The translations under genes and the position numbers were made by a program. 41,693 bases of DNA from a virus: IMG/VR virus record IMGVR_UViG_3300019935_000005, positions 1 through 41,693 of that record, one strand, 5' to 3'. The notes under the pieces were generated by a model, which saw only the letters and a program-made list of their open reading frames with translations, made no database searches and was not told the origin of the DNA. Shown piece after piece: positions 1,771-18,262 of this stretch; position 1 is the first letter of the stretch; every line of letters starts with the position of its first letter.

Positions 1771-1845
1771 ATACACTATATCTTAAATTGTACTTAAAAC
1801 TAAAGAAAAGATAACAATATTGTGCTTATATATCAAAATTTGCTA

Positions 1846-2085
1846 TTATCCTTTACTATAAAACCTTATCAATGTTTCGTAATATTCTTTTTTATCACAA
1901 TGTACTTTTGCATTTTCTAAATAATACACTATTAATTTTCTTTCGTTATTAGTCACTTGATAAGGTGCGTTTACCTCTTGCATAGTTTCAAATCTTATTT
2001 TTGAGTTATTATATTCATTTACATACCATTCACAGTTTGCGAATAGTGATGATGTTAGTATTAGTATTGTTAGTATTGTTTTCAT
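1846..2085 (-). CDS. Small exported protein, 79 aa
   Basis: The N-terminus is a clear Sec signal peptide: M-K-T followed by about 12 hydrophobic residues, then S-L-F-A with likely cleavage before N-C-E-W. The mature part, about 61 residues, has two cysteines that could form a disulfide in the periplasm. The position before Cys is Asn, so it is a poor lipobox. ATGA couples the gene to the one upstream. Export from an early operon would fit superinfection exclusion or envelope modification. That is inference only. Confidence 0.7.
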   Translation of the reverse strand: MKTILTILILTSSLFANCEWYVNEYNNSKIRFETMQEVNAPYQVTNNERKLIVYYLENAKVHCDKKEYYETLIRFYSKG

Positions 2086-2378
2086 TTTATTTCTCTCCAG
2101 TTTTCAAATTGTTTAAATTTTATCTTTGTTTTATTCTTCTGAAGTGTGTACCCTCTTTGTCCCATATACCACAAAAACCAATCTATTGTATATACATGAC
2201 CATTTCTCCAATTTGGCATTTCTTTTCTAGGATCGTTTTCATTATTGCTCTCATATAATATGTGCATTGCTTTAAATAAGTCTTTTTGTTTGTGAAAATC
2301 TCTTAAAAACTCAGGCAGATGCTTTTCGTCCTTTGTCCATTGTTCTAGCCTATTCCATTCTTTATTCGTTAGTTCCAT
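2082..2378 (-). CDS. Hypothetical protein, 98 aa
   Basis: Aromatic-rich protein (nine tryptophans or more, e.g. N-W-R-N-G and W-F-L-W-Y). It is similar in style to small phage proteins but not assigned to a family. The ATG at 2378 overlaps the stop of the small cysteine gene upstream (TAATG), and its own TGA overlaps the next ATG, so translation is probably coupled. Confidence 0.65.
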   Translation of the reverse strand: MELTNKEWNRLEQWTKDEKHLPEFLRDFHKQKDLFKAMHILYESNNENDPRKEMPNWRNGHVYTIDWFLWYMGQRGYTLQKNKTKIKFKQFENWREIK

Positions 2379-2512
2379 TATTTACTCCCTTTTTCACATC
2401 CAAAACTAGCTTTAACTAATCCTTTTGTTTGTTCTGAATTTGTACATATAAAATTCATTCCTATATTATTTCTTTTTGGTGTCATTGCACATTTACAGTT
2501 TATACATTTCAT
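2378..2512 (-). CDS. Small cysteine-rich protein, 44 aa
   Basis: Translated by hand from a gap. It begins M-K-C-I-N-C-K-C and has further cysteines at I-C-T and F-G-C, the spacing of a small zinc-binding module. Stop TAA overlaps the next ATG. Unknown function. The cysteine pattern and exact fit between neighbours support a real gene. Confidence 0.6.
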   Translation of the reverse strand: MKCINCKCAMTPKRNNIGMNFICTNSEQTKGLVKASFGCEKGSK

Positions 2513-2514
2513 CG

Positions 2515-2775
2515 TTAGAACTTTTTGCACATATTTTTTAAGTCATCTGCTGTTACTGTTTTACTATCGTTTACCGGTGATACTGTTGAATAATTTAGTC
2601 TTGTTTGTTCGCTTGTATCATTATGCTTAATGATTTTATTTTTTGTTAAAAAATTATTCATTGTTGAAAATCCTACATCAAAAAACTCTGCCACTTGTTT
2701 TCTTGTTAGATTTTCTAAGATATACTTTTGTTTTATTGCCTGTATTGATGGCATTTCTTGTGCTTTTCTGTTCAT
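2515..2775 (-). CDS. Helix-turn-helix protein, 86 aa
   Basis: Residues about 10-47 look like a helix-turn-helix: a helix with Q-A-I-K-Q-K-Y, then L-T-R-K-Q-V-A-E-F-F-D-V-G-F-S-T-M-N-N-F as the turn and recognition helix. The C-terminal part is polar and possibly disordered. Probably a small DNA-binding regulator acting on phage or host promoters. It is the only HTH candidate in the leftward operon. It lacks the size and peptidase domain of a CI-type repressor. Confidence 0.6.
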   Translation of the reverse strand: MNRKAQEMPSIQAIKQKYILENLTRKQVAEFFDVGFSTMNNFLTKNKIIKHNDTSEQTRLNYSTVSPVNDSKTVTADDLKNMCKKF

Positions 2776-2978
2776 TTCTCTTCCTTAAAGTTTTTATAAA
2801 ATTCTAACCATTCATTAAAAAATTCACTTTCTTTTTGAATATCATTTACACTAAATAATGCTTTTGATATGTTTTGTCTTTGTGATTTTAACTTATTAAA
2901 TTCTTCATAAGTTTTACATTTTCCTATGGCTCTAAAGTGTTTTACTATTGCAATATCTATTTCTCTTACTGTACACAT
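2772..2978 (-). CDS. Hypothetical helical protein, 68 aa
   Basis: Lysine- and glutamate-rich helical protein of unknown function. The ATG at 2978 lies inside the end of the upstream membrane-peptide ORF. Its stop overlaps the start of the HTH gene (ATGA). Translational coupling suggests the two are made together. Confidence 0.6.
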   Translation of the reverse strand: MCTVREIDIAIVKHFRAIGKCKTYEEFNKLKSQRQNISKALFSVNDIQKESEFFNEWLEFYKNFKEEK

Positions 2979-3067
2979 TTTAATATATCCTTTACTATTA
3001 TTCCTAATACTATTAAACTAAATGTTAAAAGGATTAATCTATCAATTATGTCGTGCTTTTTACGCAT
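2966..3067 (-). CDS. Single-span membrane peptide, 33 aa
   Basis: Found by hand. M-R-K-K-H-D is followed by about 20 hydrophobic residues (L-I-L-L-T-F-S-L-I-V-L-G-I-I-V) and a short tail. The positive-inside N-terminus suggests one inner-membrane helix. It overlaps both neighbours. Unknown function; it could be a holin-like, exclusion or toxin-type micropeptide. Confidence 0.5.
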   Translation of the reverse strand: MRKKHDIIDRLILLTFSLIVLGIIVKDILKCVQ

Positions 3068-3230
3068 AAATTTTCTCTTTTAAATCTTCTAAAACCTCAT
3101 CACTTGAAGCGATTACCAACTTTTGCTCTACTGTTTCATTTGATACTTTTTTTATTAGTCCATTTGTTTTAACTGAACTATCGTCAAATACTCTTTTAAA
3201 TGCTTTTGTGTATGGCTCTTTAGTTGTCAT
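3060..3230 (-). CDS. Hypothetical protein, 56 aa
   Basis: Found by hand. Charged protein beginning M-T-T-K-E-P-Y with an acidic helical C-terminus. GGATAAAAG lies before ATG at 3230. ATGA overlap with the gene upstream and an overlap with the membrane peptide downstream support it. No family recognised. Confidence 0.55.
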   Translation of the reverse strand: MTTKEPYTKAFKRVFDDSSVKTNGLIKKVSNETVEQKLVIASSDEVLEDLKEKIYA

Positions 3231-3313
3231 CTTTTATCCTTTGTCAATTCTGAATATATTTCTATTACCATAATCGTAACAAATATTGTACATCCACCAA
3301 TTAAAGCATCCAT
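3227..3313 (-). CDS. Membrane micropeptide, 28 aa
   Basis: Starts M-D-A-L-I-G-G-C and has one hydrophobic stretch (T-I-F-V-T-I-M-V-I). A GGATTATTC ribosome-like site precedes ATG at 3313. It is linked by ATGA to the next gene and overlaps the peptide upstream. Very short, so support comes from context only. Confidence 0.4.
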   Translation of the reverse strand: MDALIGGCTIFVTIMVIEIYSELTKDKR

Positions 3314-3420
3314 GAATAATCCTTTTTTATTAAATCTTTTACGAAACTATCAAATGCTTTGCTTTTATATACTATTAGTCCTATTGCTGATAAAGCTCCC
3401 AGTATCATTGATTCTATCAT
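3301..3420 (-). CDS. Single-span membrane peptide, 39 aa
   Basis: Starts M-I-E-S-M-I-L-G and has a hydrophobic helix of about 15 residues, then K-S-K and an amphipathic tail. Its ATG overlaps the TGA of the YopX gene (ATGA). It is one of three membrane micropeptides clustered at 2966-3420, which suggests a shared envelope-related role or tandem small accessory genes. Confidence 0.5.
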   Translation of the reverse strand: MIESMILGALSAIGLIVYKSKAFDSFVKDLIKKDYSWML

Positions 3421-3815
3421 TTTAGTAACTCTGGATTTTCGTGTATGTTTCCTACTCTAATACCACCTATCAGTAAAATATCTACAAGCCTATGCTTTTT
3501 ATAATTACTACCTATACATACCCATCCAGTATCTCTATAATCCCACTCTACTTTTAAAAATCCGTATTCTATAGTATTTATAATATCATGCTCGTACACT
3601 TCATTTTTATTTAATTTATCTTTTAATCCTGTGTATTCATTTTTAAATATTTCATAATCAGGAAACTCATCATCATTTGATAATGTTTCACTATTTATAG
3701 ACTCTTCCATCTCTTCTCTTGCAAAACTACAGTCTAATAGTTCTACTAATGTTCTATATCTAGTAGCAAAAAAGTTACCATCCTTAAAAATAAATCTAAA
3801 TTTAATCTCTCTCAT
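3417..3815 (-). CDS. YopX-family protein, 132 aa
   Basis: Starts M-R-E-I-K-F-R-F and carries the family hallmarks Y-T-G-L-K-D (about residue 63), E-V-Y-E-H-D-I-I (about 73) and a C-terminal G-N-I-H-E-N-P-E-L-L. YopX proteins are common in phages of Firmicutes and Proteobacteria; their function is not known. First gene of the leftward operon, about 35 bp downstream of a TATAAT element. A second, more diverged YopX-like gene lies at 9722-10111. Confidence 0.8.
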   Translation of the reverse strand: MREIKFRFIFKDGNFFATRYRTLVELLDCSFAREEMEESINSETLSNDDEFPDYEIFKNEYTGLKDKLNKNEVYEHDIINTIEYGFLKVEWDYRDTGWVCIGSNYKKHRLVDILLIGGIRVGNIHENPELLK

Positions 3816-3852
3816 CTTTTATTCCTTAATCTTTTTATATTCAAATTATGAC

Positions 3853-3858
3853 ATTATA
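3853..3858 (-). promoter_or_regulatory. Probable leftward early promoter (-10)
   Basis: TATAAT on the minus strand about 38 bp before the YopX ATG. No convincing -35. It is placed back-to-back with the rightward promoter at 3963-3991. Confidence 0.45.
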
Positions 3859-3962
3859 TTTTATCTTTAACTATGGATATTGATTAATTTGTAAATAAAT
3901 TTTTAATATCGTTTCAGTTGGTAACACTTAATTTAATTTGTTGATTTAAAATGCTCTTTTTG

Positions 3963-3991
3963 TTGAAAAATTTGTTTTTTACTTGTATAGT
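3963..3991 (+). promoter_or_regulatory. Probable rightward early promoter
   Basis: TTGAAA (3963-3968) and TATAGT (3986-3991) are separated by 17 bp. The expected start is near 3998, followed by an AAAGGAAAGAG ribosome site before the ATG at 4012. This is the best promoter of the divergent early control region (3816-4011). No repressor gene sits next to it. Confidence 0.6.
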
Positions 3992-4011
3992 TAGAGTGTG
4001 AAAGGAAAGAG

Positions 4012-4239
4012 ATGCAGAATATTTATAAAGATGAAAATTGTATTTTTATTCTAACAGTTAATGAAAAATTTGAAAGAAAAACTTTTAATAAGAATAGTTC
4101 GATTAAGTGGTATGAAAAATTACTTAACGAATTTCCAAATGAAAAAGTATGTCACTTTAAAATTTTAAAGAGTGTATTTAAAGAATACAAAAAAACATTT
4201 GACTATAAGATATTAGTCAATAATTCGATAATAGGATAG
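4012..4239 (+). CDS. Hypothetical protein, 75 aa
   Basis: First gene of the rightward recombination operon, just after a good promoter, with AAAGGAAAGAG before ATG. Lysine-rich, no membrane span, two cysteines. Not recognised. It precedes the coiled-coil gene by 4 bp. Confidence 0.65.
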   Translation: MQNIYKDENCIFILTVNEKFERKTFNKNSSIKWYEKLLNEFPNEKVCHFKILKSVFKEYKKTFDYKILVNNSIIG

Positions 4240-4243
4240 TGAT

Positions 4244-5638
4244 ATGAGTATAGAAAAAGATTTTACAAAAGAATTGCTAGTTATAGCTCCAATGCTTGAC
4301 ATAGTAAGCATTAAAGAACAAAACAAAGCTAAGGCATGGAATACAAGGCTATTAACGCTTTCAGTTGATAACAAAGGTAATTTTGTACATAATGCAAATG
4401 AAATAAAAAGTGCTGTATCAAGAGGTATGGAAGTATTAAAAGCTAACATAGAATTAACTAATAGCTTAGATGAACTTGAAATGTACAATGATACTTTAAA
4501 TACATTATTTTTATGGATCCAAGGGACTAGAAAAGAATCTACTTCAAATATGGATCAACTTAAAAAAGTTTTGAGTGAGCCTGAAAAACTTTTAAGTGAT
4601 ATGAAACCTCTTTTAAAAGAAAAGATTGAAAAATTAAATGAAGAGATATTCAAAATTAGAAGAATCAATATATTTAATGAGTTTCAAACTTTAGAGGATG
4701 AATCTGAACTAAATGAATGTGATATTAACTTTGAAGTGTTTAATTCTTTTGCTGATGAAAAGAAAAAAACTAAAACTTATGATTTGAACAAAAGCGGTAA
4801 TTTAAGTGCTGCTGCAAAAACTGCAATTAAACAACAATTTGACTTAGTTGCTAATCCAATAATTGAAGCTAGAAAGTTATCTAAATTAAAAGAGAAAGAG
4901 CAAAATTTATTAACTCTGCAATTATCTAAGATTGAAACATCTGGAACTAATGAAGAGTTGCAATTAAGTATCAATGAGTTAAATAGTATTGAAGATACAC
5001 TTGATACTTATTTTCCAAATATTAAAGATAATGCAAAAAGTCAAATACTATCTTTAAATAAAATTATTCATAATGCAATTGATCAAAATGATAGGATATC
5101 TAAAGAAAATGCACAAAATGAAAAAGATTTGAATTTTATTAGTGCTGTTAGTGTTGTAGATATTGATAATACAAGCGATATTAATTCTTTGACTTCTCTA
5201 TTAGCTGATTTAGAAAACTATGAAGATTTAAACAATATGCTACCTAAAAACAAGCGAACGGCTAAAGACTTAATTATTAAGTTAGACACTAAAATACAAA
5301 CATTAAAACAAAATGAATTAAAAAATATTTATGTACCTATTGAAAAAGCTGCACCAGTTGAATTAAAAAATGATTGTAAAATTGATCCTATACCAAAAGA
5401 AGTTATTGAAGAACATAATGATTATTTTGATGATGTTGTAAATCACGAAATACACCCTGTTGGTAAAGAAACTATTGAAGTAAAAACAGAACTAAAACAA
5501 TTCAAATTATCAGATAAAGATATTAAATTTATTAGTGAGATTAAAATAAGTGCAGTTGATAATTTAAGTGCTGTTGGTATGTTGATTGAGTATATTAGCA
5601 ATCATTTAGACTTTTGCGGATTAGAGGAAATTAAATAA
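4244..5638 (+). CDS. Large coiled-coil protein of the recombination operon, 464 aa
   Basis: Mostly helical protein with long heptad-like stretches (about residues 100-150 and 195-300). The central segment L-K-E-K-I-E-K-L-N-E-E-I followed by R-R-I-N-I-F-N-E-F resembles DUF1351-type proteins, which often sit beside RecT/Bet genes. The family match is tentative. A conserved-looking C-terminal section (about 415-464) follows an acidic linker. AGGATAGTGAT before ATG is an adequate ribosome site. Likely accessory to the Bet/exonuclease pair that follows. Confidence 0.6.
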   Translation: MSIEKDFTKELLVIAPMLDIVSIKEQNKAKAWNTRLLTLSVDNKGNFVHNANEIKSAVSRGMEVLKANIELTNSLDELEMYNDTLNTLFLWIQGTRKESTSNMDQLKKVLSEPEKLLSDMKPLLKEKIEKLNEEIFKIRRINIFNEFQTLEDESELNECDINFEVFNSFADEKKKTKTYDLNKSGNLSAAAKTAIKQQFDLVANPIIEARKLSKLKEKEQNLLTLQLSKIETSGTNEELQLSINELNSIEDTLDTYFPNIKDNAKSQILSLNKIIHNAIDQNDRISKENAQNEKDLNFISAVSVVDIDNTSDINSLTSLLADLENYEDLNNMLPKNKRTAKDLIIKLDTKIQTLKQNELKNIYVPIEKAAPVELKNDCKIDPIPKEVIEEHNDYFDDVVNHEIHPVGKETIEVKTELKQFKLSDKDIKFISEIKISAVDNLSAVGMLIEYISNHLDFCGLEEIK

Positions 5639-5667
5639 TTAAGTTTTAATTTATGAAAAGATTTTAA

Positions 5668-5860
5668 ATGAAAAAAAGTAATTAAACCTCTTATTCAGGA
5701 ATACTTCGATAGTAGTAAGAAAAGATGGATGGCAAGTATCATGGTTAAAAACAAAGCTATATTTATCGGAAGATACAAATGTGCTTTACAAGGTGCTTAC
5801 GCTTATGACAAATATGTAAGAGATAATAATCTCTATCATACGATAAACTTTAAGGATTAA
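5668..5860 (+). pseudogene. AP2-like DNA-binding ORF interrupted by an A7 run
   Basis: The ATG at 5668 is followed by A7 and terminates after five codons. With one A fewer it would read M-K-K-V-I-K-P-L-I... through to TAA at 5860, 63 aa. The downstream frame has K-R-W-M-A-S-I, then K-A-I-F-I-G-R-Y, then G-A-Y-A-Y-D-K-Y-V. This is the W-x-A-x-I ... I-x-x-G-x-Y ... A-Y-D layout of AP2 DNA-binding domains found in phage HNH endonucleases. No nuclease half is nearby. It may be a broken remnant, a slippage-expressed mini-protein or a sequence error. An internal ATG at 5741 gives only 39 aa. Confidence 0.55.
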
Positions 5861-5861
5861 A

Positions 5862-6710
5862 ATGAAAGAATTAGTTAAAAATGAAGAATGGTTAAATGAA
5901 AAAGAAATTGAGTTAGTAAAAAAACAATTTTTTCCAGACAGTGCAACATCACAAGAAATTGAATATTGTATGGGTGTTGCAAAAGCGTTTAATTTAAACC
6001 CTATATTGAAACAAATCTATTTTGTTCCTAGAGGTAGTTGGTTTAAACAACAAGGGCAAAAAGATAAATGGGTTGAAAAAGTTGAACCTTTAGCTGGTAG
6101 AGATAGTTTTTTAACTCTTGCTCATAGGAGTGGTGCTTTTGAAAGCATTGAAAGCACTACAGAAATAAGAAAAATTCCTTTTTTGGATGGTACAAAATGG
6201 ACTGAAAAGGATGAACTTGTTGGAATATGTAAAGTATGGAAAAAAGGATATAAAAAGCCTTTTAAGGTTGAAGTAAATTATACTGAATATGTTCAAAAAA
6301 AGAAAGACGGATCAGCTACTGCCTTTTGGAAAGACAAGCCACATACAATGATTAAAAAAGTTGCAGAGTCGCAATGTCTTAGAAAAGCTTTTGATATCAC
6401 AGGTCTTTATGATGAAACTGAAACATCGAGCAATTATCAAAATGTAAATATTTCTACAGATGAAACAATAGAAACAGTACCTACAAACGATACACCAAAA
6501 CAAAATGTACGAAATGTTTTAAAACCATCTAATGTAGAAAATATTGTTAAAGATGTTACGGTTGAAGATATTAATTTTTTATATGGTTCTGTTGAAAGTT
6601 CTATCCAAATTAAAATGCACGATGTATTTAATAATAATGCTGGATGGAAAACAGATTATACACCTCAACAATTAAATCAATTAAAAATTGAATTGGAACA
6701 AATTCAATGA
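5862..6710 (+). CDS. bet: Bet/RecT-type single-strand annealing protein, 282 aa
   Basis: Phage recombination protein of the Red-beta family. It coats ssDNA produced by the partner exonuclease and anneals complementary strands. Family landmarks: Y-C-M-G-V-A-K-A-F-N-L-N-P near residue 35, V-E-P-L-A-G-R-D-S-F near 74 and P-H-T-M-I-K-K-V-A-E-S-Q-C-L-R-K-A-F at about 160-177. The C-terminal third is low-complexity and acidic, then helical. AAGGATTAAA precedes ATG. ATGA overlap with the exonuclease gene suggests coupled translation. Confidence 0.9.
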   Translation: MKELVKNEEWLNEKEIELVKKQFFPDSATSQEIEYCMGVAKAFNLNPILKQIYFVPRGSWFKQQGQKDKWVEKVEPLAGRDSFLTLAHRSGAFESIESTTEIRKIPFLDGTKWTEKDELVGICKVWKKGYKKPFKVEVNYTEYVQKKKDGSATAFWKDKPHTMIKKVAESQCLRKAFDITGLYDETETSSNYQNVNISTDETIETVPTNDTPKQNVRNVLKPSNVENIVKDVTVEDINFLYGSVESSIQIKMHDVFNNNAGWKTDYTPQQLNQLKIELEQIQ

Positions 6711-7525
6711 TAGATTTTTCAAAATCTATACTAACAAAAATTACCGATGAAGAATATTTCTCTATCGGTAAAGTTGATGCTTTTAATCATAAATCCTTAG
6801 TTACAAGTGCAAGTTTTTTTAAACAGGTGTTTGATAGAGATTTATATGAGGTTTTAATTAAAGGTAATGGAACTATATCTGATGAACTTCAATATATGTT
6901 TGATGTAGGTTCAGCTTTTCATACGTTTTGCCTGGAGCCTAAAGAATTTGAATCTAGGTATTATGTTGCAGATTTTGCTAATATTCAAGAAACTAGAAAG
7001 TTAATAAAAAGTTTAGATTATACTTTTATTGTTGAGTGTTGGAAAAATATTAAAATTAAGTATCCATTCATCTTAGATGAATCGGATCAAAACGAATTAG
7101 TGATTACTACTAATTTTTATGGAGTGCCTTATCGATGCAAAATAGATAAATTGCACGAAGTAAATGGAGTTATAAAAATTATAGACTTAAAATCAGTTTG
7201 GTTTGATTTTTATGGTAAAAAATATAAAAGAAATGGTGATGGTGTTCGCTGGGGACTGATTAAGTATATTCAAGAGCTTAACTACGATTTGCAGTCGTAT
7301 TGCTATTATCGTGCTGTTTCTCAATATTTAGAAGAAAAGGGAATTAACGCTAATATAGAGTTTTTAATTCTTATGGCTAGTAAAGATACTTATGATGTAA
7401 AAATTCTTAAGTTTAGTCCTGAAATGATAAGAAGTGGTAAAGAAAAGTTTAATGTAGTTTTCCCAGAAATCAAACAGTTTTTTGATGGTGGTATTAAATA
7501 TGTTGAACAGGAAGAGATAATATAG
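6707..7525 (+). CDS. PD-(D/E)XK exonuclease, RecE/YqaJ-like, 272 aa
   Basis: Probable 5'-3' dsDNA exonuclease working with Bet. Seen: F-D-V-G-S-A-F-H (about 65-72), C-K-I-D-K (Asp about 147), I-I-D-L-K-S (Asp 160, Lys 162) and Y-D-L-Q-S-Y-C-Y-Y (Gln about 196). Together these match the H, D, D/E-X-K and Q-x-x-x-Y motifs of RecB-like nucleases with a DUF3799-type layout. Gene order annealing protein then exonuclease is typical of phage recombination modules. The start overlaps the bet stop. Confidence 0.88.
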   Translation: MIDFSKSILTKITDEEYFSIGKVDAFNHKSLVTSASFFKQVFDRDLYEVLIKGNGTISDELQYMFDVGSAFHTFCLEPKEFESRYYVADFANIQETRKLIKSLDYTFIVECWKNIKIKYPFILDESDQNELVITTNFYGVPYRCKIDKLHEVNGVIKIIDLKSVWFDFYGKKYKRNGDGVRWGLIKYIQELNYDLQSYCYYRAVSQYLEEKGINANIEFLILMASKDTYDVKILKFSPEMIRSGKEKFNVVFPEIKQFFDGGIKYVEQEEII

Positions 7526-9721: not shown

Positions 9722-10111
9722 ATGAATGAATTTATAGTATGGGATGGTTTTAAAAAGAAATTTGTTAATGATGTTACTATGTATATGTCTTTTAATGAAA
9801 ATGGGACAATAAATAGTTTTAATGGTTTTGGGGATAATAAGTATTTTAACTACATCGGCTTAAAAGATATAAACAATAATAAGATATATGCTGATAGTAG
9901 TATTGTAAAACTTGAATGGAAAGACTATCGATACAGAAATGAAATAATAAGAGAGATTGGATATTTTTTATTTAATAAAGATTTAAAGTGCTTAGAGTTC
10001 AAATCGGTTGAAAGCAAGATGAAAATAAACTTTGTTATGCACATAGACTATATTCAAAGAGTTGAAATAATCGACACAATCCAAGAAAACAAATTAGGAC
10101 TGATTAAATGA
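9722..10111 (+). CDS. YopX-like protein, 129 aa
   Basis: Begins M-N-E-F-I-V-W-D and contains Y-I-G-L-K-D-I-N-N-N-K-I-Y (about residues 41-53), the core YopX motif. The usual C-terminal G-N-x-x-E-N-P-E is missing, so it is a diverged member. It lies behind a long structured leader, with AAGGAGATAGAG as a very strong ribosome site. Confidence 0.65.
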   Translation: MNEFIVWDGFKKKFVNDVTMYMSFNENGTINSFNGFGDNKYFNYIGLKDINNNKIYADSSIVKLEWKDYRYRNEIIREIGYFLFNKDLKCLEFKSVESKMKINFVMHIDYIQRVEIIDTIQENKLGLIK

Positions 10112-11124: not shown

Positions 11125-11260
11125 AATTTATTTTAACCAGAGGGTCGAAATTCTAGGAATTGAAAGACTATATCTTTATAGCCTTTTGGTTAAAGTAAAT
11201 TTTATAACCGATTAACGAATTCGACCCTCATTAATCTTATTTACTATTTTATTGTCGGAA
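11125..11260 (+). ncRNA. Structured leader, copy 1 of a two-copy RNA element
   Basis: Stem A: 11125-11139 pairs with 11187-11201 (15 bp, one G.U). Stem B: 11140-11153 pairs with 11217-11229 (13 bp, one bulged A). Hairpin C: 11064-equivalent position 11164-11172 with 11177-11185, loop TCTT, one A.C mismatch. The order A-B-C-A'-B' makes A and B cross, as in a pseudoknot. GATTAA (11210-11215) and TTAATC (11231-11236) flank strand B' and could form a competing stem D. TAACC (11205-11209) can also compete for A'. The element ends in TTTTATTGTCGGAAAG, which includes the ribosome site. Copy 2 is at 14376-14516, with different stem sequences but the same plan. Confidence 0.7.
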
Positions 11261-11269
11261 AGTTTAAAA

Positions 11270-12625
11270 ATGAATTATGATGAATTTATAGAATCTAAAA
11301 AACATAGTTCTTTCAATTATGGATTTGATCCTATTTGGATTCCAAAACAGATATTTGATTTTCAAGAATACATAGTTACTAAGGCTATTCAAAAAGGGCG
11401 TATTGGTATTTTTGCAGATACTGGCCTAGGAAAAACTAGAATATCTTTAACTATTGCTAATAACATAGTATTAAAGACTAATAAAAAAGTTTTGATATTA
11501 ACTCCTTTAGCTGTTGCCTTTCAGTTTATTAATGAAGCTATTGATATTGGAATTGATGATATTGAGTATACTAAAGATGGTAAGCATACTAAAAAAATAG
11601 TAATTTGTAATTATGAAAGATTGCACTTATTAAATAGTAATGATTTTGAATGTGTTTTACTTGATGAAAGTTCTATTCTCAAAAACTTTAAAGGTCAAAT
11701 TAAAAATCAGATAACAAGTTTTGTTAAAAAGATTCCTTATAGATTTTTAACAACTGCAACACCTTCACCTAATGACTTTATAGAATTAGGTACAAGTAGT
11801 GAAGCTTTAGGCTATATGGGATATATGGATATGCTAACAAAGTTTTTTAAGAACAATCAAAATAGTGTTGATTCTAATAATAGAAATATAGGGGAAAAGT
11901 TTTATTTAAAACCTCATGCGGAAAAAGCTTTTTTCCAATGGGTAAATACTTGGTCTATAATGGTTAAAAAACCATCTGATTTAGGATTTAGTGACGATAG
12001 ATATAATTTACCTGAACTTATTACTAATAATCATATCATTAAAAATAATAATCATTATGATATGGGTAGTTTATTTCCTGTTATCGCTAAGACCATGACT
12101 GAAGTAAGACAAGAGCAAAAACTAACAGAACAACAAAGAAGCGAAAAGGCTATAGAGTTAGCAAGTGGTAAAACTTCTGTTTATTGGTGTAATACAAATT
12201 CAGAAAGTAAAATATTAAAAGGTTTAGATAGTGAAGCTGTTGAAATCATAGGAAGTCAATCTATAGAACAAAAAGAGGAGATTTTAAAAGCTTTTGCAGA
12301 TGGAGAAATTAAAAGACTTATTACTAAAGCTAAGATGACTGGTATGGGGCTTAACTGGCAACATTGCAGCCACTCTGTATTTTTCCCTACTTGGAGTTAT
12401 GAACAATATTATCAAGCTTTAAGGCGTTTTTGGAGATTTGGTCAAAAAAATGATGTAAATATTGATATTGTTACTAGTGAGGGGATGACTAGAGTTATGG
12501 AAGCTTTATACCAAAAGACTAAAAAAGCACAAGAGCTTTACCAAAATTTAGTAAGTAATGTAAATAGTGAGTATGTGGCTGATGTAGCTAAAAAAAGAAT
12601 AGAAATAATAAAACCAAAATTTTAA
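11270..12625 (+). CDS. SNF2-like DNA helicase/translocase, 451 aa
   Basis: Superfamily 2 ATPase. Walker A is A-D-T-G-L-G-K-T (about 49-56), motif II L-L-D-E-S-S-I-L-K-N (132-139), motif III T-A-T-P-S-P-N (162-168) and motif VI Q-A-L-R-R-F-W-R-F-G-Q (382-392). D-E-S-S with following L-K-N and the R-x-G-Q ending point to SNF2-type rather than classic DEAD proteins. I chose ATG 11270 (GGAAAG seven bases before) over the in-frame TTG at 11252. Its partner, 9 bp downstream, is a DNA methyltransferase. Such pairs occur in phages and may remodel or protect phage DNA; the role here is inferred. Confidence 0.85.
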   Translation: MNYDEFIESKKHSSFNYGFDPIWIPKQIFDFQEYIVTKAIQKGRIGIFADTGLGKTRISLTIANNIVLKTNKKVLILTPLAVAFQFINEAIDIGIDDIEYTKDGKHTKKIVICNYERLHLLNSNDFECVLLDESSILKNFKGQIKNQITSFVKKIPYRFLTTATPSPNDFIELGTSSEALGYMGYMDMLTKFFKNNQNSVDSNNRNIGEKFYLKPHAEKAFFQWVNTWSIMVKKPSDLGFSDDRYNLPELITNNHIIKNNNHYDMGSLFPVIAKTMTEVRQEQKLTEQQRSEKAIELASGKTSVYWCNTNSESKILKGLDSEAVEIIGSQSIEQKEEILKAFADGEIKRLITKAKMTGMGLNWQHCSHSVFFPTWSYEQYYQALRRFWRFGQKNDVNIDIVTSEGMTRVMEALYQKTKKAQELYQNLVSNVNSEYVADVAKKRIEIIKPKF

Positions 12626-12634
12626 GGATATAAA

Positions 12635-13771
12635 ATGGAAATTGAAGAAGCAAAAAAAATACATAATGATCTGGAATCAAAAGTTAAAGATAATGGATAT
12701 AATACTGTGTCCGAAATGGATATGGGTATTCCTTCTGTCAAAGAGATTATGATTACCAATAATCATATTGTAAAAAATCAAGTAGTAACAGATGAGTACG
12801 CTATATACAATGGCGATTGTATGGAAGTTATCCAAACTTTAGAAGATGAAAGTATTGATTTAAGTGTTTATAGCCCACCTTTTGCAGGATTATATAATTA
12901 TAGTTCAGATCCTAGAGATATGAGCAACTGTGAATCTAAAGATCAATTTTTAGAACAGTATGAGTTTTTAGTTTCTCAAATGGCTAGAGTTACTAAATCA
13001 GGAAGAATAAACGCTGTTCATTGTACAGATGTATTTGATAATACTTGTAGATTATGGGATTTTCCACATGAGATAATTAAACTACATGAAAAATATGGAT
13101 TTGAATATAGAAATAAGATTACTGTTTGGAAAGAGCCTTTAAAAGTTAGGATGAGAACTATGGTACAGTCTTTAATGCACAAGTTTATAGTAGAAGATAG
13201 TACAAAGTGTTTTACTGCAATGCCTGACTATGTTTTAATATTTACTAAAAAAGGAGATAATAAAGTGCCTGTTACGCATCCGTGCGGTATTAATCACTAC
13301 GCCGGTGAAATTCCTATTTTACCAAATATTTTAAGAGCTTGGAATAATGCTAATAATTCAGATTTGAATGAAGTTGAATTATGGGATCATTTAAATAGCA
13401 TTAATGAAGATAATAAAATTACAAAACTTAATCATTATATTTGGCAGCGTTATGCTTCTAGTGTTTGGGATGATATCCGAATTGATAATGTATTGCCTTT
13501 TAAAGACTGTAAAGAAGATGACGACGAAAAACATGTACATCCTTTACAGTTAGATGTTATTGATAGAATTGTTGAATTATATTCTAATCCTGATGAGGTT
13601 GTATTGACTCCTTTTATGGGTGTAGGTAGCGAGGTGTTTAGTCCTGTATCTATGGGTAGAAAAGCTATAGGAATAGAATTAAAAGATAGTTATTTTAAAC
13701 AAGCTACTTTAAATATGAAAGATGTTCCTAAACGATTTGTAAAAAAAGCTGAACAGCAAAAACTATTTTAG
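12635..13771 (+). CDS. DNA methyltransferase (N4-cytosine or N6-adenine type), 378 aa
   Basis: Catalytic motif IV is S-P-P-F (residues 80-83), preceded by Y-N-G-D-C-M-E-V-I. The SAM-binding motif I comes late, T-P-F-M-G-V-G-S-E-V near residue 320, with G-I-E-L as motif II. This order (IV before I) is the beta class. S-P-P-F/Y is frequent in N4-cytosine and some N6-adenine enzymes, so the base modified is uncertain. An insert of about 200 residues between the motifs may hold target recognition. No restriction endonuclease is adjacent, so self-protection or regulation is likely. Confidence 0.85.
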   Translation: MEIEEAKKIHNDLESKVKDNGYNTVSEMDMGIPSVKEIMITNNHIVKNQVVTDEYAIYNGDCMEVIQTLEDESIDLSVYSPPFAGLYNYSSDPRDMSNCESKDQFLEQYEFLVSQMARVTKSGRINAVHCTDVFDNTCRLWDFPHEIIKLHEKYGFEYRNKITVWKEPLKVRMRTMVQSLMHKFIVEDSTKCFTAMPDYVLIFTKKGDNKVPVTHPCGINHYAGEIPILPNILRAWNNANNSDLNEVELWDHLNSINEDNKITKLNHYIWQRYASSVWDDIRIDNVLPFKDCKEDDDEKHVHPLQLDVIDRIVELYSNPDEVVLTPFMGVGSEVFSPVSMGRKAIGIELKDSYFKQATLNMKDVPKRFVKKAEQQKLF

Positions 13772-13779
13772 GAACAAAA

Positions 13780-14157
13780 ATGATAAATTATAAAACAAAA
13801 CAAAAACTAACATTTAAAAGCGTATCAGAATTGTACGCTTTCATGGATCAACAAAGTGATGAAGATTTTGAAATTTACTCAAAAATGTATCATATTGAAA
13901 ATCCTACTTGGCAAATTATTAAACACGATGGGAAATCTAAAGTTATTAAATTTCAAGAAGTAAAAAAGATTGATGTTTTAACTTTAGATAATATTAACTG
14001 TGTTTCTATTGATGGTGGATTTGCTTATTACGAATGTGATGTTTTTCAAGGAAAAATAAAAGTTAATTTACAAAAAAATGAGAATTTTATAAAAAGCATT
14101 GATAATTCTAATATAGATTCTAATTTATGGGATAAAATGGTTTTAAAAAGTGCTTGA
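13780..14157 (+). CDS. Hypothetical protein, 125 aa
   Basis: Soluble protein with alternating charged and hydrophobic residues and no recognised motif. It follows the methyltransferase by 8 bp, with AGGAACAAAA before ATG. Its TGA overlaps the starts of two alternative short ORFs downstream. Confidence 0.6.
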   Translation: MINYKTKQKLTFKSVSELYAFMDQQSDEDFEIYSKMYHIENPTWQIIKHDGKSKVIKFQEVKKIDVLTLDNINCVSIDGGFAYYECDVFQGKIKVNLQKNENFIKSIDNSNIDSNLWDKMVLKSA

Positions 14158-14302
14158 TGAAATTAAAACATATCGTAACTCTTGCTGTTGTATTTGTATT
14201 TATAAATACGATGGCGAGTTATCTATTAAAATACACCCTAAAACAAAAGAAAATGTAATTATTTGTGATAAATGTTACGAAAGTTTACAAAAAAGTAAAT
14301 AA
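14150..14302 (+). CDS. Small zinc-ribbon protein, 50 aa
   Basis: GTG start inside the end of the previous gene. The protein contains S-C-C-C-I-C near residue 12 and I-C-D-K-C-Y near 39, a typical paired cysteine pattern for a zinc site. An overlapping frame (14157-14258, ATG) would instead encode a 33-aa membrane peptide. The cysteine pattern makes this frame the better choice. Confidence 0.5.
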   Translation: MLDEIKTYRNSCCCICIYKYDGELSIKIHPKTKENVIICDKCYESLQKSK

Positions 14303-14375
14303 TTAAGTTTTATTTTGTTACAATTTTAAACAAAGAAAATTTTAAGTATTTTAAATCCTTTTTATTTTCTTATAT

Positions 14376-14516
14376 GATACTTTTAATGAGCGTCCTAGTT
14401 CTGCAAGTCCTTATCGCTTGATAAGGGCGTTTATTAAAGGTATTTTATTTATAAGATTAGCAGAAGTAGGACGCCGTTAATCTTTAGCCTTAAAATTTAT
14501 TGTTCCGAAAGAAATT
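14376..14516 (+). ncRNA. Structured leader, copy 2 of a two-copy RNA element
   Basis: Stem A: 14376-14387 with 14433-14444 (12 pairs, two G.U). Stem B: 14390-14404 with 14460-14474 (14 pairs, one G.G). Hairpin C: 14405-14430, loop GCTT, whose stem ends two bases before A'. AAGATTA (14453-14459) and TAATCTT (14478-14484) flank strand B' exactly. The shared 3' end TTAATCTT...TTTATTGTTCCGAAAG leads into the ATG at 14517. The plan is the same as at 11125-11260, while stems A, B and C differ in sequence yet stay paired. A TATGAT at 14373-14378 overlaps strand A, so the true promoter must lie further upstream if A is transcribed. Confidence 0.7.
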
Positions 14517-15203
14517 ATGAAAGATATCGTATTATTAAACGATAATCAACTAGTAGCAAATATTAATAGTATTGCTAAGTATAGTGGTAAAAATGTAAAA
14601 TCATTAAGAGATTTAATTACTAGACATAAAAAAGAATTTAATGAACTTGGTTTAAGCATAACTAAAGAGTACGATTTAAAATCGCAGAATAAAACTAACC
14701 TTAATGAAGAACAAACAATGTTTTTATTACTACTTATGAGAAACAGTCCAGTTATTAAAAAATTCAAATTAGAAGTAGTAAAAGAATTTTCTAAAATGAA
14801 AAAACAACAAAATCAATTAAAACTAGACTTTTCAGAAACTCAACTATTAGACTTTGAGAATCAATTAAGATCAAAAGAAAATCAACTAAAAGAATCTCAA
14901 AAACAAATAGAAAAAAACAAAAGACAATCTTATGCAAATAGTGGCGATGATAAATTCTGCAATGTTCACAGATTTGTAAAAGATCATAATCTTAATATAA
15001 GTGATGAAGAGTTTAATAATATACTTATAGAAGAGAATGTATTAGGTCAAAAACTTATTAATAAATATATCCCTTGCCCTACTGGAGAGTATTCTAAATA
15101 CGATGGTAGCTCAATTATTATCAATATTAATAAAATGCTAGAAATATGCACTAAAAGAAATATTAAAGAGTTTGATAAAATACCTTCTCTGTTTGATTCT
15201 TAG
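14517..15203 (+). CDS. Rha-like phage regulatory protein, 228 aa
   Basis: Residues about 10-95 follow the Rha layout: S-I-A-K-Y-S-G-K-N-V-K-S-L-R-D-L-I, then N-E-E-Q-T-M-F-L-L-L-L and K-K-F-K-L-E-V-V-K-E-F. A coiled coil (about 95-140) and a second domain with D-D-K-F-C-N-V-H-R-F (about 143-215) follow. Rha-type proteins are DNA-binding regulators or antirepressors in temperate phages. It starts right after structured leader 2 with a weak site (CCGAAAG), so translation may be set by that leader. Confidence 0.7.
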   Translation: MKDIVLLNDNQLVANINSIAKYSGKNVKSLRDLITRHKKEFNELGLSITKEYDLKSQNKTNLNEEQTMFLLLLMRNSPVIKKFKLEVVKEFSKMKKQQNQLKLDFSETQLLDFENQLRSKENQLKESQKQIEKNKRQSYANSGDDKFCNVHRFVKDHNLNISDEEFNNILIEENVLGQKLINKYIPCPTGEYSKYDGSSIIININKMLEICTKRNIKEFDKIPSLFDS

Positions 15204-15235: not shown

Positions 15236-16225
15236 ATGGATTCTAAAAACTCCAACACTATTCCTATGTCAAAAAAAGCATATACTAAACAAGATAAGAT
15301 TAGAAATTATCGTTTAAAGTATGCCAATATAAGACACAAATATTATGCTATGTGCGAAAAGTACAGTAGCTATAATAAAACTATGCTTACATTTACCATA
15401 CCATCTAAAATAAATAACGCTATTATTCAAGGTAAGTACTCTAAAACTGCTTATCTTGTAGAGTTGCGCACATATATAGCTAAACAGTTTAATAATGCTA
15501 GTAGTGAGATAAAATACTTTAGTAATATAGAATTAGGCTCAAAAAGAAATAATCCTCATTTGCATATACAGGTATGGACTAAAAGCAATACACAAAATAT
15601 GACAGAATGTGATGATAATAGGCACATAGAGTACAAGAACCCCATAACTAAAGGGTTTAATAATGCTAATAATATTTCTATTCCCTCGTTTGTCCGTTCT
15701 ATTCCGTCAAATTCCACCAATATTGATGAAGTTTATACCATATATAAAAAGACTATTGAAAAGTTCTCATTAAATAACTTACGATGTAAAATTACATTAC
15801 CTGAATATAAGAATAAGAATTATGATTATGTTATCAAAGATTATAGAAAAGATATATCTGATGTGGAACTATGGGCGAATGAAAATGCAAAAAAAGGTAT
15901 TAGGAAACATTTAGGTAAACAAGTTAGATTTTATAATATGAGTGCTGATAAATATAGTCAAAAGATTTATAGGATAGCTTATAGATTTTATAATAAATTA
16001 CGTAAAGATGTTAATGAATTTATTAGTAAGTTTGTTACATTATTTTATAGTAAGAGTATCGATGGATTAAGGGATATTAGGGAGTTAAATAGTAAGATAG
16101 TAGATATACTAGAACTAGAACTAGAACAAGAGATAATTAGATGTTGTGAGTTAGGCTATAGCATTAAAAAAGCCACATACCACATACAAAAATTAATTTG
16201 CTACTGGATATATGGCTTTATATAA
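15236..16225 (+). CDS. Probable HUH endonuclease (replication initiator-like), 329 aa
   Basis: Three motifs in the right order suggest a Rep/relaxase-type HUH nuclease: M-L-T-F-T-I-P (50-56), N-P-H-L-H-I-Q-V-W (106-114, His-hydrophobic-His metal ligands) and Y-V-I-K-D (198-202, Tyr nucleophile with Lys). The spacing resembles geminivirus-type Rep proteins, but no helicase domain follows. The remainder is basic and helical. Such an enzyme nicks one strand and stays bound through tyrosine to start rolling-circle replication. No ribosome site is visible before ATG, and M11 has none either. A transposase-like or mobilisation role is possible. Confidence 0.55.
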   Translation: MDSKNSNTIPMSKKAYTKQDKIRNYRLKYANIRHKYYAMCEKYSSYNKTMLTFTIPSKINNAIIQGKYSKTAYLVELRTYIAKQFNNASSEIKYFSNIELGSKRNNPHLHIQVWTKSNTQNMTECDDNRHIEYKNPITKGFNNANNISIPSFVRSIPSNSTNIDEVYTIYKKTIEKFSLNNLRCKITLPEYKNKNYDYVIKDYRKDISDVELWANENAKKGIRKHLGKQVRFYNMSADKYSQKIYRIAYRFYNKLRKDVNEFISKFVTLFYSKSIDGLRDIRELNSKIVDILELELEQEIIRCCELGYSIKKATYHIQKLICYWIYGFI

Positions 16226-18188: not shown

Positions 18189-18262
18189 AACAACCAGCAG
18201 GAATCGAACCTACATACAAAGGCTTAACAGTCCTCTCTTTTACCAGTAAAGCTTATAGTTGT
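18189..18262 (-). tRNA. tRNA-Asn (GTT), atypical
   Basis: The acceptor stem ACAACTA/TGGTTGT is complete (one G.U). The T arm is GTAGG-TTCGATT-CCTGC. The anticodon loop CTGTTAA gives GTT at 18226-18228. Oddities: the D stem pairs only if shifted (CTTT/AAAG, leaving four bases after the acceptor), an A.G mismatch closes the anticodon stem, the discriminator is U and no CCA is encoded. A TATAAT sits five bases before the 5' end. Probably a phage-borne tRNA supplementing Asn codons, which are abundant here. Confidence 0.75.

Follow-up and report, generated by a model that had tools for sequence, protein, structure and literature searches.

What is the function of two stretches of phage DNA that repeat one folding plan with different sequences, each directly ahead of an early operon, in a genome record of 41,693 nucleotides (nt)? 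The record, IMG/VR IMGVR_UViG_3300019935_000005, was analysed over this whole length, hereafter the window. Both elements lie on the plus strand, copy 1 before a helicase/DNA methyltransferase block and copy 2 before a Rha block, an arrangement put forward in an earlier note on this DNA and with which the protein matches agree. Each element is read here as a 5' leader RNA that would serve as an attenuator, i.e., an expression gate, of its early phage operon, and the probability of this reading is put at about one half. In both copies, the strands follow the order A-B-C-A'-D-B'-D', where A, B, and D pair with A', B', and D', respectively, C is a local hairpin, and B' is enclosed in the loop of D.

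In copy 1, strand A (AATTTATTTTAACCA, 11125-11139) pairs with A' (11187-11201) over 15 pairs, some of them G-U, at -18.9 kcal/mol, while strand B (GAGGGTCGAAATTC, 11140-11153), for which no other partner was found within the window, pairs with B' (GAATTCGACCCTC, 11217-11229) over 13 pairs with one bulged A at -21.6 kcal/mol. Hairpin C, read from the sequence at 11166-11183, carries a TCTT loop and has counterparts with xCTT loops in copy 2 and in the related phage G008 described below, and B' is flanked by D (GATTAA, 11210-11215) and D' (TTAATC, 11231-11236). Copy 2 is composed of strand A (ATACTTTTAATGA, 14377-14389) with A' (14430-14443), strand B (GCGTCCTAGTTCTGC, 14390-14404) with B' (GCAGAAGTAGGACGC, 14460-14474; 15 positions with one mismatch, -27.0 kcal/mol), hairpin C (CCTTATC-GCTT-GATAAGG, 14409-14426, likewise read from the sequence), and the flanking strands D (AAGATTA, 14453-14459) and D' (TAATCTT, 14478-14484). 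Every helix proposed in the earlier note, including the D hairpin around B', can be read directly where it had been placed, and its assignment of a pseudoknot topology holds, A and B crossing each other when fully paired. A further state, missing from its list, was found in both copies: strand A can extend into the 5' half of B by using the 3' strand of C, giving 21 and 25 paired positions at -29 and -32 kcal/mol in copies 1 and 2, and this extension would compete with the other states. Hairpin C of copy 2, together with the GTTTATT that follows, was itself scored as terminator-like (14407-14428), and in both copies C is succeeded by the U-rich start of A'.

The distance from the end of D' to the ATG is 32-33 nt in both copies. 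The start codons that had been noted behind the leaders are present, their positions being corrected to 11270 for the helicase and 14517 for Rha. Two short sequences previously counted as parts of the shared plan have to be given up as such. TTAATCTT is simply the D' strand with adjoining bases and lacks conservation outside this phage; in the whole record, the pair TTAATCTT..TTTATTGT at this spacing has two occurrences, both of them in these leaders. The GAAAG of the former CGAAAG motif, whose position before the ATG is occupied by AAAGG or AGGA in the relatives, is best taken as a weak Shine-Dalgarno sequence about 8 nt from the start; the putative ribosome-binding sites would accordingly be GGAAAG at 11257-11262 (7-8 nt before the ATG, by comparison with the relatives) and CGAAAG at 14506-14511 (by its position before the ATG).

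That these pairings exceed chance was assessed with a simple stacking-energy scanner written for this analysis, as opposed to a pseudoknot folding program. Against 60-100 dinucleotide shuffles per leader, the leaders scored at z values of about -7 to -8, and the observed score was reached by no shuffle. When eight phage genomes were scanned on both strands for the A-B-A'-D-B'-D' order, 24 real structures (some places being counted on both strands) fell below -43 kcal/mol, copies 1 and 2 scoring -47.0 and -53.4 kcal/mol, as opposed to none in shuffled sequence of equal length, the best of which reached -42.9 kcal/mol. The earlier view that the element matches no known RNA family was borne out: a cmscan of the window against Rfam 15 (4227 families) at gathering scores returned a transfer RNA (tRNA) only, both leaders and four relatives gave nothing relevant at E up to 1, with C4, isrK, and the ribozymes included, and two Flavobacterium phages gave nothing relevant at E up to 0.5. 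No description of such a leader architecture was found in the Creative Commons-licensed full text that was searched. Sequence-based searches were equally unrewarding, with the exact pattern TTAATCTT..TTTATTGT..GAAAG yielding four chance matches devoid of the structure in viral contigs, and BLAST of the leader against phages yielding one chance match of 24 bases.

Relatives were instead recovered by using the helicase as bait and then inspecting the whole records, and eight further leaders that follow this plan with next to no sequence in common were identified in five other phage contigs (designated G002, G003, G005, G007, and G008). G002 carries one before the helicase and one before an AntA/ORF6C antirepressor, G003 one before the helicase and one before a Rha/KilAC antirepressor, G005 one before a primase/VapE-like gene and one before an AP2-domain nuclease-like gene, and G007 one before an unassigned gene. 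G008, to which this phage is most closely related (helicase 80% and HUH protein 72% identical), has its leader at the Rha locus, where the downstream gene encodes a T5orf172/MUG113 protein; the leader appears from sequence comparison to have been kept while the gene behind it was exchanged. Of Rha itself, nothing beyond 23 residues resembling its C-terminus was found at this locus (L230, 14658-15756). Most of the G002, G003, and G005 leaders have a TATAAT box a few bases before A, which places A first among the structures of the RNA in these cases.

The turnover of sequence under a constant plan is evident throughout this set. Among the ten leaders of this kind, hereafter the window type, only one pair shares any 11-mer, and B pairs with B' at -16 to -31 kcal/mol within leaders (mean -22.6) versus a mean of -5.6 between leaders, a comparison that, the segments being hand-picked, documents sequence turnover and carries no independent significance. 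This within- versus between-leader comparison took the place of a covariance model because the strands of copy 1, copy 2, and G008 failed to line up in a MAFFT alignment. G008 and copy 2 have the same tail (AAAAATTATTGTTAACTGAAAG / AAAATTTATTGTTCCGAAAG) and have both kept the xCTT-looped hairpin C, while their B helices of 14-15 base pairs (bp) are entirely different. The compensatory change claimed earlier is seen between two relatives of a G005 leader, whose A stems are distinguished by a double change from T-A to G-C (AATGGGG/CCCCATT versus AAGGGGG/CCCCCTT), B, B', and D being unaltered. The refutation that the earlier note had set, an absence of further homologues or of covariation, was not borne out, homologues recognisable by architecture being known from many phages.

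Most of the helicase homologues come from phages whose promoters bear the signature TAnnTTTG of Bacteroidota, and a more compact version of the plan is frequent in these phages. Here, the promoter is followed by hairpin A, whose stem measures about 4-7 bp and whose loop contains B (7-15 nt), then by an AU-rich linker of about 20 nt and by hairpin D, which presents B' in its loop. D has the form of a typical intrinsic terminator, GC-rich and succeeded by a U-run before the gene (e.g., GCCCTATCAA...TTGATAGGGC TTTTTAATTT). A spacer of 10-30 nt then leads to the ATG in this layout, the interval from the end of D' to the ATG being 10-45 nt. As in attenuators, an upstream strand thus pairs with part of a terminator, namely B with the terminator loop. 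To avoid circularity, 124 nonredundant leaders were selected by promoter, terminator, and following open reading frame (ORF) only, with B left out of the selection. The terminator loop paired with the segment after the promoter at -13 kcal/mol or better in 42 of the 124, where 6.6 were expected from shuffled and 4.1 from swapped loops, and at -15 kcal/mol or better in 25 (expected 2.2 and 1.0, respectively). Flavobacterium phage snusmum6-1 alone has at least three compact leaders with three different B sequences, and comparison with its relative hattifnatt9-1 revealed a compensated double change in B/B' of one of these leaders (GTGGAACG/CGTTCCAC and GTGAGACG/CGTCTCAC). The genes preceded by leaders in these Flavobacterium phages are the helicase, the NUMOD4-HNH gene, and gp43. 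No cross-pairing between leaders of one contig was found at -11.5 or better. The genes behind the compact leaders, labelled by sequence inspection and for some by Pfam, include helicase, replication-initiator-like, primase-like, and DnaB-like genes, homing nucleases, and small unknown proteins. In many compact leaders, the D hairpin is interrupted by an asymmetric internal loop whose sides recur as TGA / GGAT or GGA / AAA; this loop lies below the small apical stem carrying B' and is possibly a sheared G-A motif.

On the preferred reading, the transcript would start at or just before hairpin A, whose loop would present B, and hairpin D, situated about 60-80 nt further along and a short way ahead of the ribosome-binding region, would show the complementary B' in its own loop. 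As B' is always transcribed before D', B:B' can form first, and B is proposed to pair with B' as soon as the latter emerges, ahead of the synthesis of the 3' strand of D. In the long-B versions of the window type, B:B' would compete with D (mean -22.6 versus -9.6 kcal/mol), and in the two window copies, where B' takes up almost all of the D loop, full B and D are mutually exclusive. In the compact versions, the terminator loop has a mean slack of 14 nt, which leaves room for B to kiss D, D being slightly stronger than B on average (-17.1 versus -15.6). The bistable switch suggested earlier may therefore apply to the window copies, and it does not extend to the compact type, in which the D loop is large enough for both contacts. 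As D is a terminator there, the compact type would amount to attenuation, with the B:B' contact setting termination versus read-through into the replication genes; in the two window copies, where D has no U-run, the gate might act through factor-dependent termination, translation, or decay. A free RNA or factor occupying B or B' would shift the balance, for instance a terminated leader acting on later transcripts in the manner of the P4 CI RNA. Regulation by the leaders, together with its direction, trigger, level, and any action in trans, is what we infer from the architecture; transcription elongation is the level favoured for the compact type, the assignment for the window type being less certain.

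The conserved entity might alternatively be DNA, with the paired inverted repeats serving as operators, a replication origin, or a nicking hairpin for the HUH replication protein encoded beside copy 2. Non-Watson-Crick positions inside the helices, scored symmetrically, number 70 for G-U and 3 for A-C, the former count being biased upward by the G-U-tolerant scan with which the hits were found. The order promoter-A-B-A'-D[B']D'-ATG and its orientation are fixed across the leaders. Since G-U far exceeds A-C and the promoter-to-start orientation is fixed, selection on the sense RNA is indicated, and RNA is probably the selected molecule. Each genome moreover holds two or more copies with unrelated repeats, unlike the site of one protein. 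An HUH origin or operator at the DNA level was consequently rejected on the grounds of G-U bias and orientation, and a DNA-level element of any kind is regarded as very improbable, replication genes downstream notwithstanding.

Several findings weigh against the attenuator reading. The inflated G-U count has been mentioned. A clear leader of this kind is missing from most helicase homologues, and the G008 helicase, close as it is, has none, the G008 leader being confined to the Rha locus. The D hairpin of either window copy is AU-rich, in place of GC-rich, with no U-run behind it, and it accordingly offers no clear intrinsic terminator. Promoter matches near the leaders are no commoner than in shuffles, and promoter positions in the window are uncertain; the -10-like hexamer nearest to copy 2 (TATGAT, 14373-14378) extends into the beginning of A, and A may for this reason be partly upstream of the transcription start and lost from the transcript. 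Finally, B/B' evolve no faster than the rest, with identities of 0.76 in B, 0.75 in D, and 0.81 in linkers.

The last finding bears on the most serious rival, in essence a trans version of the preferred explanation, in which the 5' hairpin, released by termination or processing, would be a stable small RNA, akin to P4 CI or P1 C4, that pairs with B' of newly made leaders and silences replication or antirepressor genes in the lysogen or at rising copy number. Hypervariable B/B' strands, considered as a sign of immunity specificity, were rejected, as B evolves like D and slightly faster than the linkers, and one argument for an immunity role is thereby removed. C4 of P1/P7 lies upstream of an antirepressor gene. 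By base-pairing with the leader, the P4 CI RNA halts the replication operon to which it belongs (PMC4825925), and the kinds of target agree with those seen here, i.e., replication genes in P4 and an antirepressor in P1 and in Gifsy-1 IsrK/anrP (PMC4825925). In both window copies and the relatives, as in RNAs of the P4/C4 type, a strand presented by a hairpin is complementary to a downstream part of the same transcript. The display of both pairing strands by hairpin loops, a feature of known antisense kissing RNAs, the lack of cross-pairing among leaders of one genome, and the Rha regulator encoded by this phage would also suit an RNA acting in trans. Against it, B and B' are on the same RNA, so that cis pairing would come first, the pattern occurs in Flavobacterium phages devoid of an annotated integrase, and no C4 or isrK match exists in Rfam. 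No convincing trans partners of B or B' were found elsewhere in the window. An immunity or feedback RNA of this kind is judged unlikely, although it ranks ahead of the other rivals.

P4 CI and P1 C4 are nonetheless the closest functional precedents, the gene set fitting both while membership of either family does not appear to apply. With the P4 CI/seqA-seqB-seqC system, the leaders share their place in the untranslated leader of replication genes, a strand complementary to that same leader, and a proposed premature termination; they differ in that neither sequence nor Rfam links them to P4, a single complementary pair stands against P4's two targets, and B' is set in the loop of a hairpin, in the compact type a terminator, that immediately precedes the gene, with trans action only proposed. 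The likeness to C4 and IsrK consists of a leader upstream of an antirepressor (Rha here, AntA/ORF6C and Rha/KilAC in the relatives), whereas the fold is different, Rfam gives no match at E up to 1, and helicase, primase, and nuclease genes are also preceded by the leaders. Loop-loop kissing and attenuation logic are familiar from plasmid copy-control attenuators and kissing antisense RNAs such as ColE1 RNA I/II and the pT181 type; here, both loops reside on one transcript in place of a counter-transcribed RNA.

The fold might alternatively be a structural protector of the 5' end, in which hairpin and pseudoknot block 5'-dependent decay of the RNase J/E type and keep the ribosome-binding region open, with no regulation involved. 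The structure does occupy the extreme 5' end, the 15-60 nt between it and the ATG keep the start region free of pairing, and it is the structure that is conserved and not the sequence. Such a protector would leave the terminator signature of the compact D with no role, and the genes served are those for replication, antirepressors, and homing nucleases rather than the high-demand structural genes, so that this explanation is considered somewhat less likely still than a trans-acting RNA.

Given the paired short motifs (TGA / GGAT, GGA / AAA) in the internal loop of D by its apical stem, which would suit a protein or tertiary contact, the possibility of a fold that binds a phage or host factor should also be given consideration, be it a riboswitch, a site for a Rop-like binder of the kissing complex, or a put-like antiterminator. 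There is no conserved core common to the window and compact types, and the downstream genes share no metabolite; a leader gated by protein or ligand is thus held to be improbable. In the put RNA of HK022, no pairing between its two hairpins has been described and the terminator lies outside the element. The present leaders resemble put as structured RNAs at the start of early phage transcripts in two copies per genome, and they differ in that the two hairpins pair and, in the compact type, the terminator belongs to the element. The resemblance to hepatitis delta virus (HDV)-like ribozymes, raised in the earlier note, goes no further than the strand order A-B-C-A'-B': stem A has 12-15 or more pairs (mostly 12-21) versus the 7-bp P1 of HDV, B' sits in a hairpin loop, and no ribozyme of Rfam matches.

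The element is best placed among the phage leader attenuators, a distinct class of self-kissing leader RNA being an open possibility. More tentatively, and with somewhat less confidence than the attenuator reading itself, it may represent a widespread and undescribed class in which the 5' end of a transcript reads the loop of an expression-blocking hairpin, i.e., a protein-free and sequence-orthogonal gate reused within a genome on replication and antirepressor genes, possibly with RNA immunity in trans. If so, phages of at least two bacterial phyla would share an RNA-only gating of these genes, which would have escaped RNA family searches because the sequence turns over while the topology stays. 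Nature would then provide a large collection of orthogonal loop-loop switches, each about 100 nt long, along with a simple testable model of a transcript 5' end controlling a hairpin made later and possibly an RNA immunity system outside the P4/P1 group.

As for the genes concerned, all on the plus strand, operon 1 opens behind copy 1 with a DEAD/SNF2-type DNA helicase of 451 amino acids (aa) at 11270-12625 (Helicase_C 5e-10; phrog_62 2.5e-52), followed by a DNA methyltransferase at 12635-13771 (N6_N4_Mtase 9e-20). Copy 2 precedes a Rha-family regulator/antirepressor of 228 aa at 14517-15203 (Phage_pRha 5.8e-8; phrog_2657) and, next in operon 2, an HUH-type replication initiator at 15236-16225 (REP_ORF2-G2P-like, 7.5e-6, just under the Pfam cut-off). 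A pattern search of viral contigs with the Rha protein gave no relatives, and its matches in phages were weak and partial only. The phage also encodes a contractile tail, RecT, SSB, and RusA, and no integrase was recognised among those of its proteins that were searched. Its host assignment rests on one Campylobacteraceae metagenome-assembled genome (L087) with an 83% identical helicase, the stretch upstream of which shows no leader. A 464-aa protein beside the early module (4244-5638) has no Pfam or PHROG match, and the tRNA gene (18189-18262, minus strand, Rfam 45.5 bits) is situated at the junction of the early and structural modules.

Last but not least, two observations were made in a Flavobacterium phage (L226, NC_048841). 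At 9791-9833, the start codon annotated for the helicase (gp33, 9791) falls within the terminator hairpin of the leader, the conserved ATG being about 40 nt further, and start codons in such phages may be mis-annotated over leaders. On the minus strand at about 1787-6870 (e.g., 3193 and 4558), several intergenic regions between small ORFs contain, in this order, GCTTATAACGTTT, a long imperfect palindrome (15-20 bp), and CGTTATG-like ends, an arrangement that recalls the integron attC sites between gene cassettes, and TATAACG is enriched 2-3 fold on this strand.

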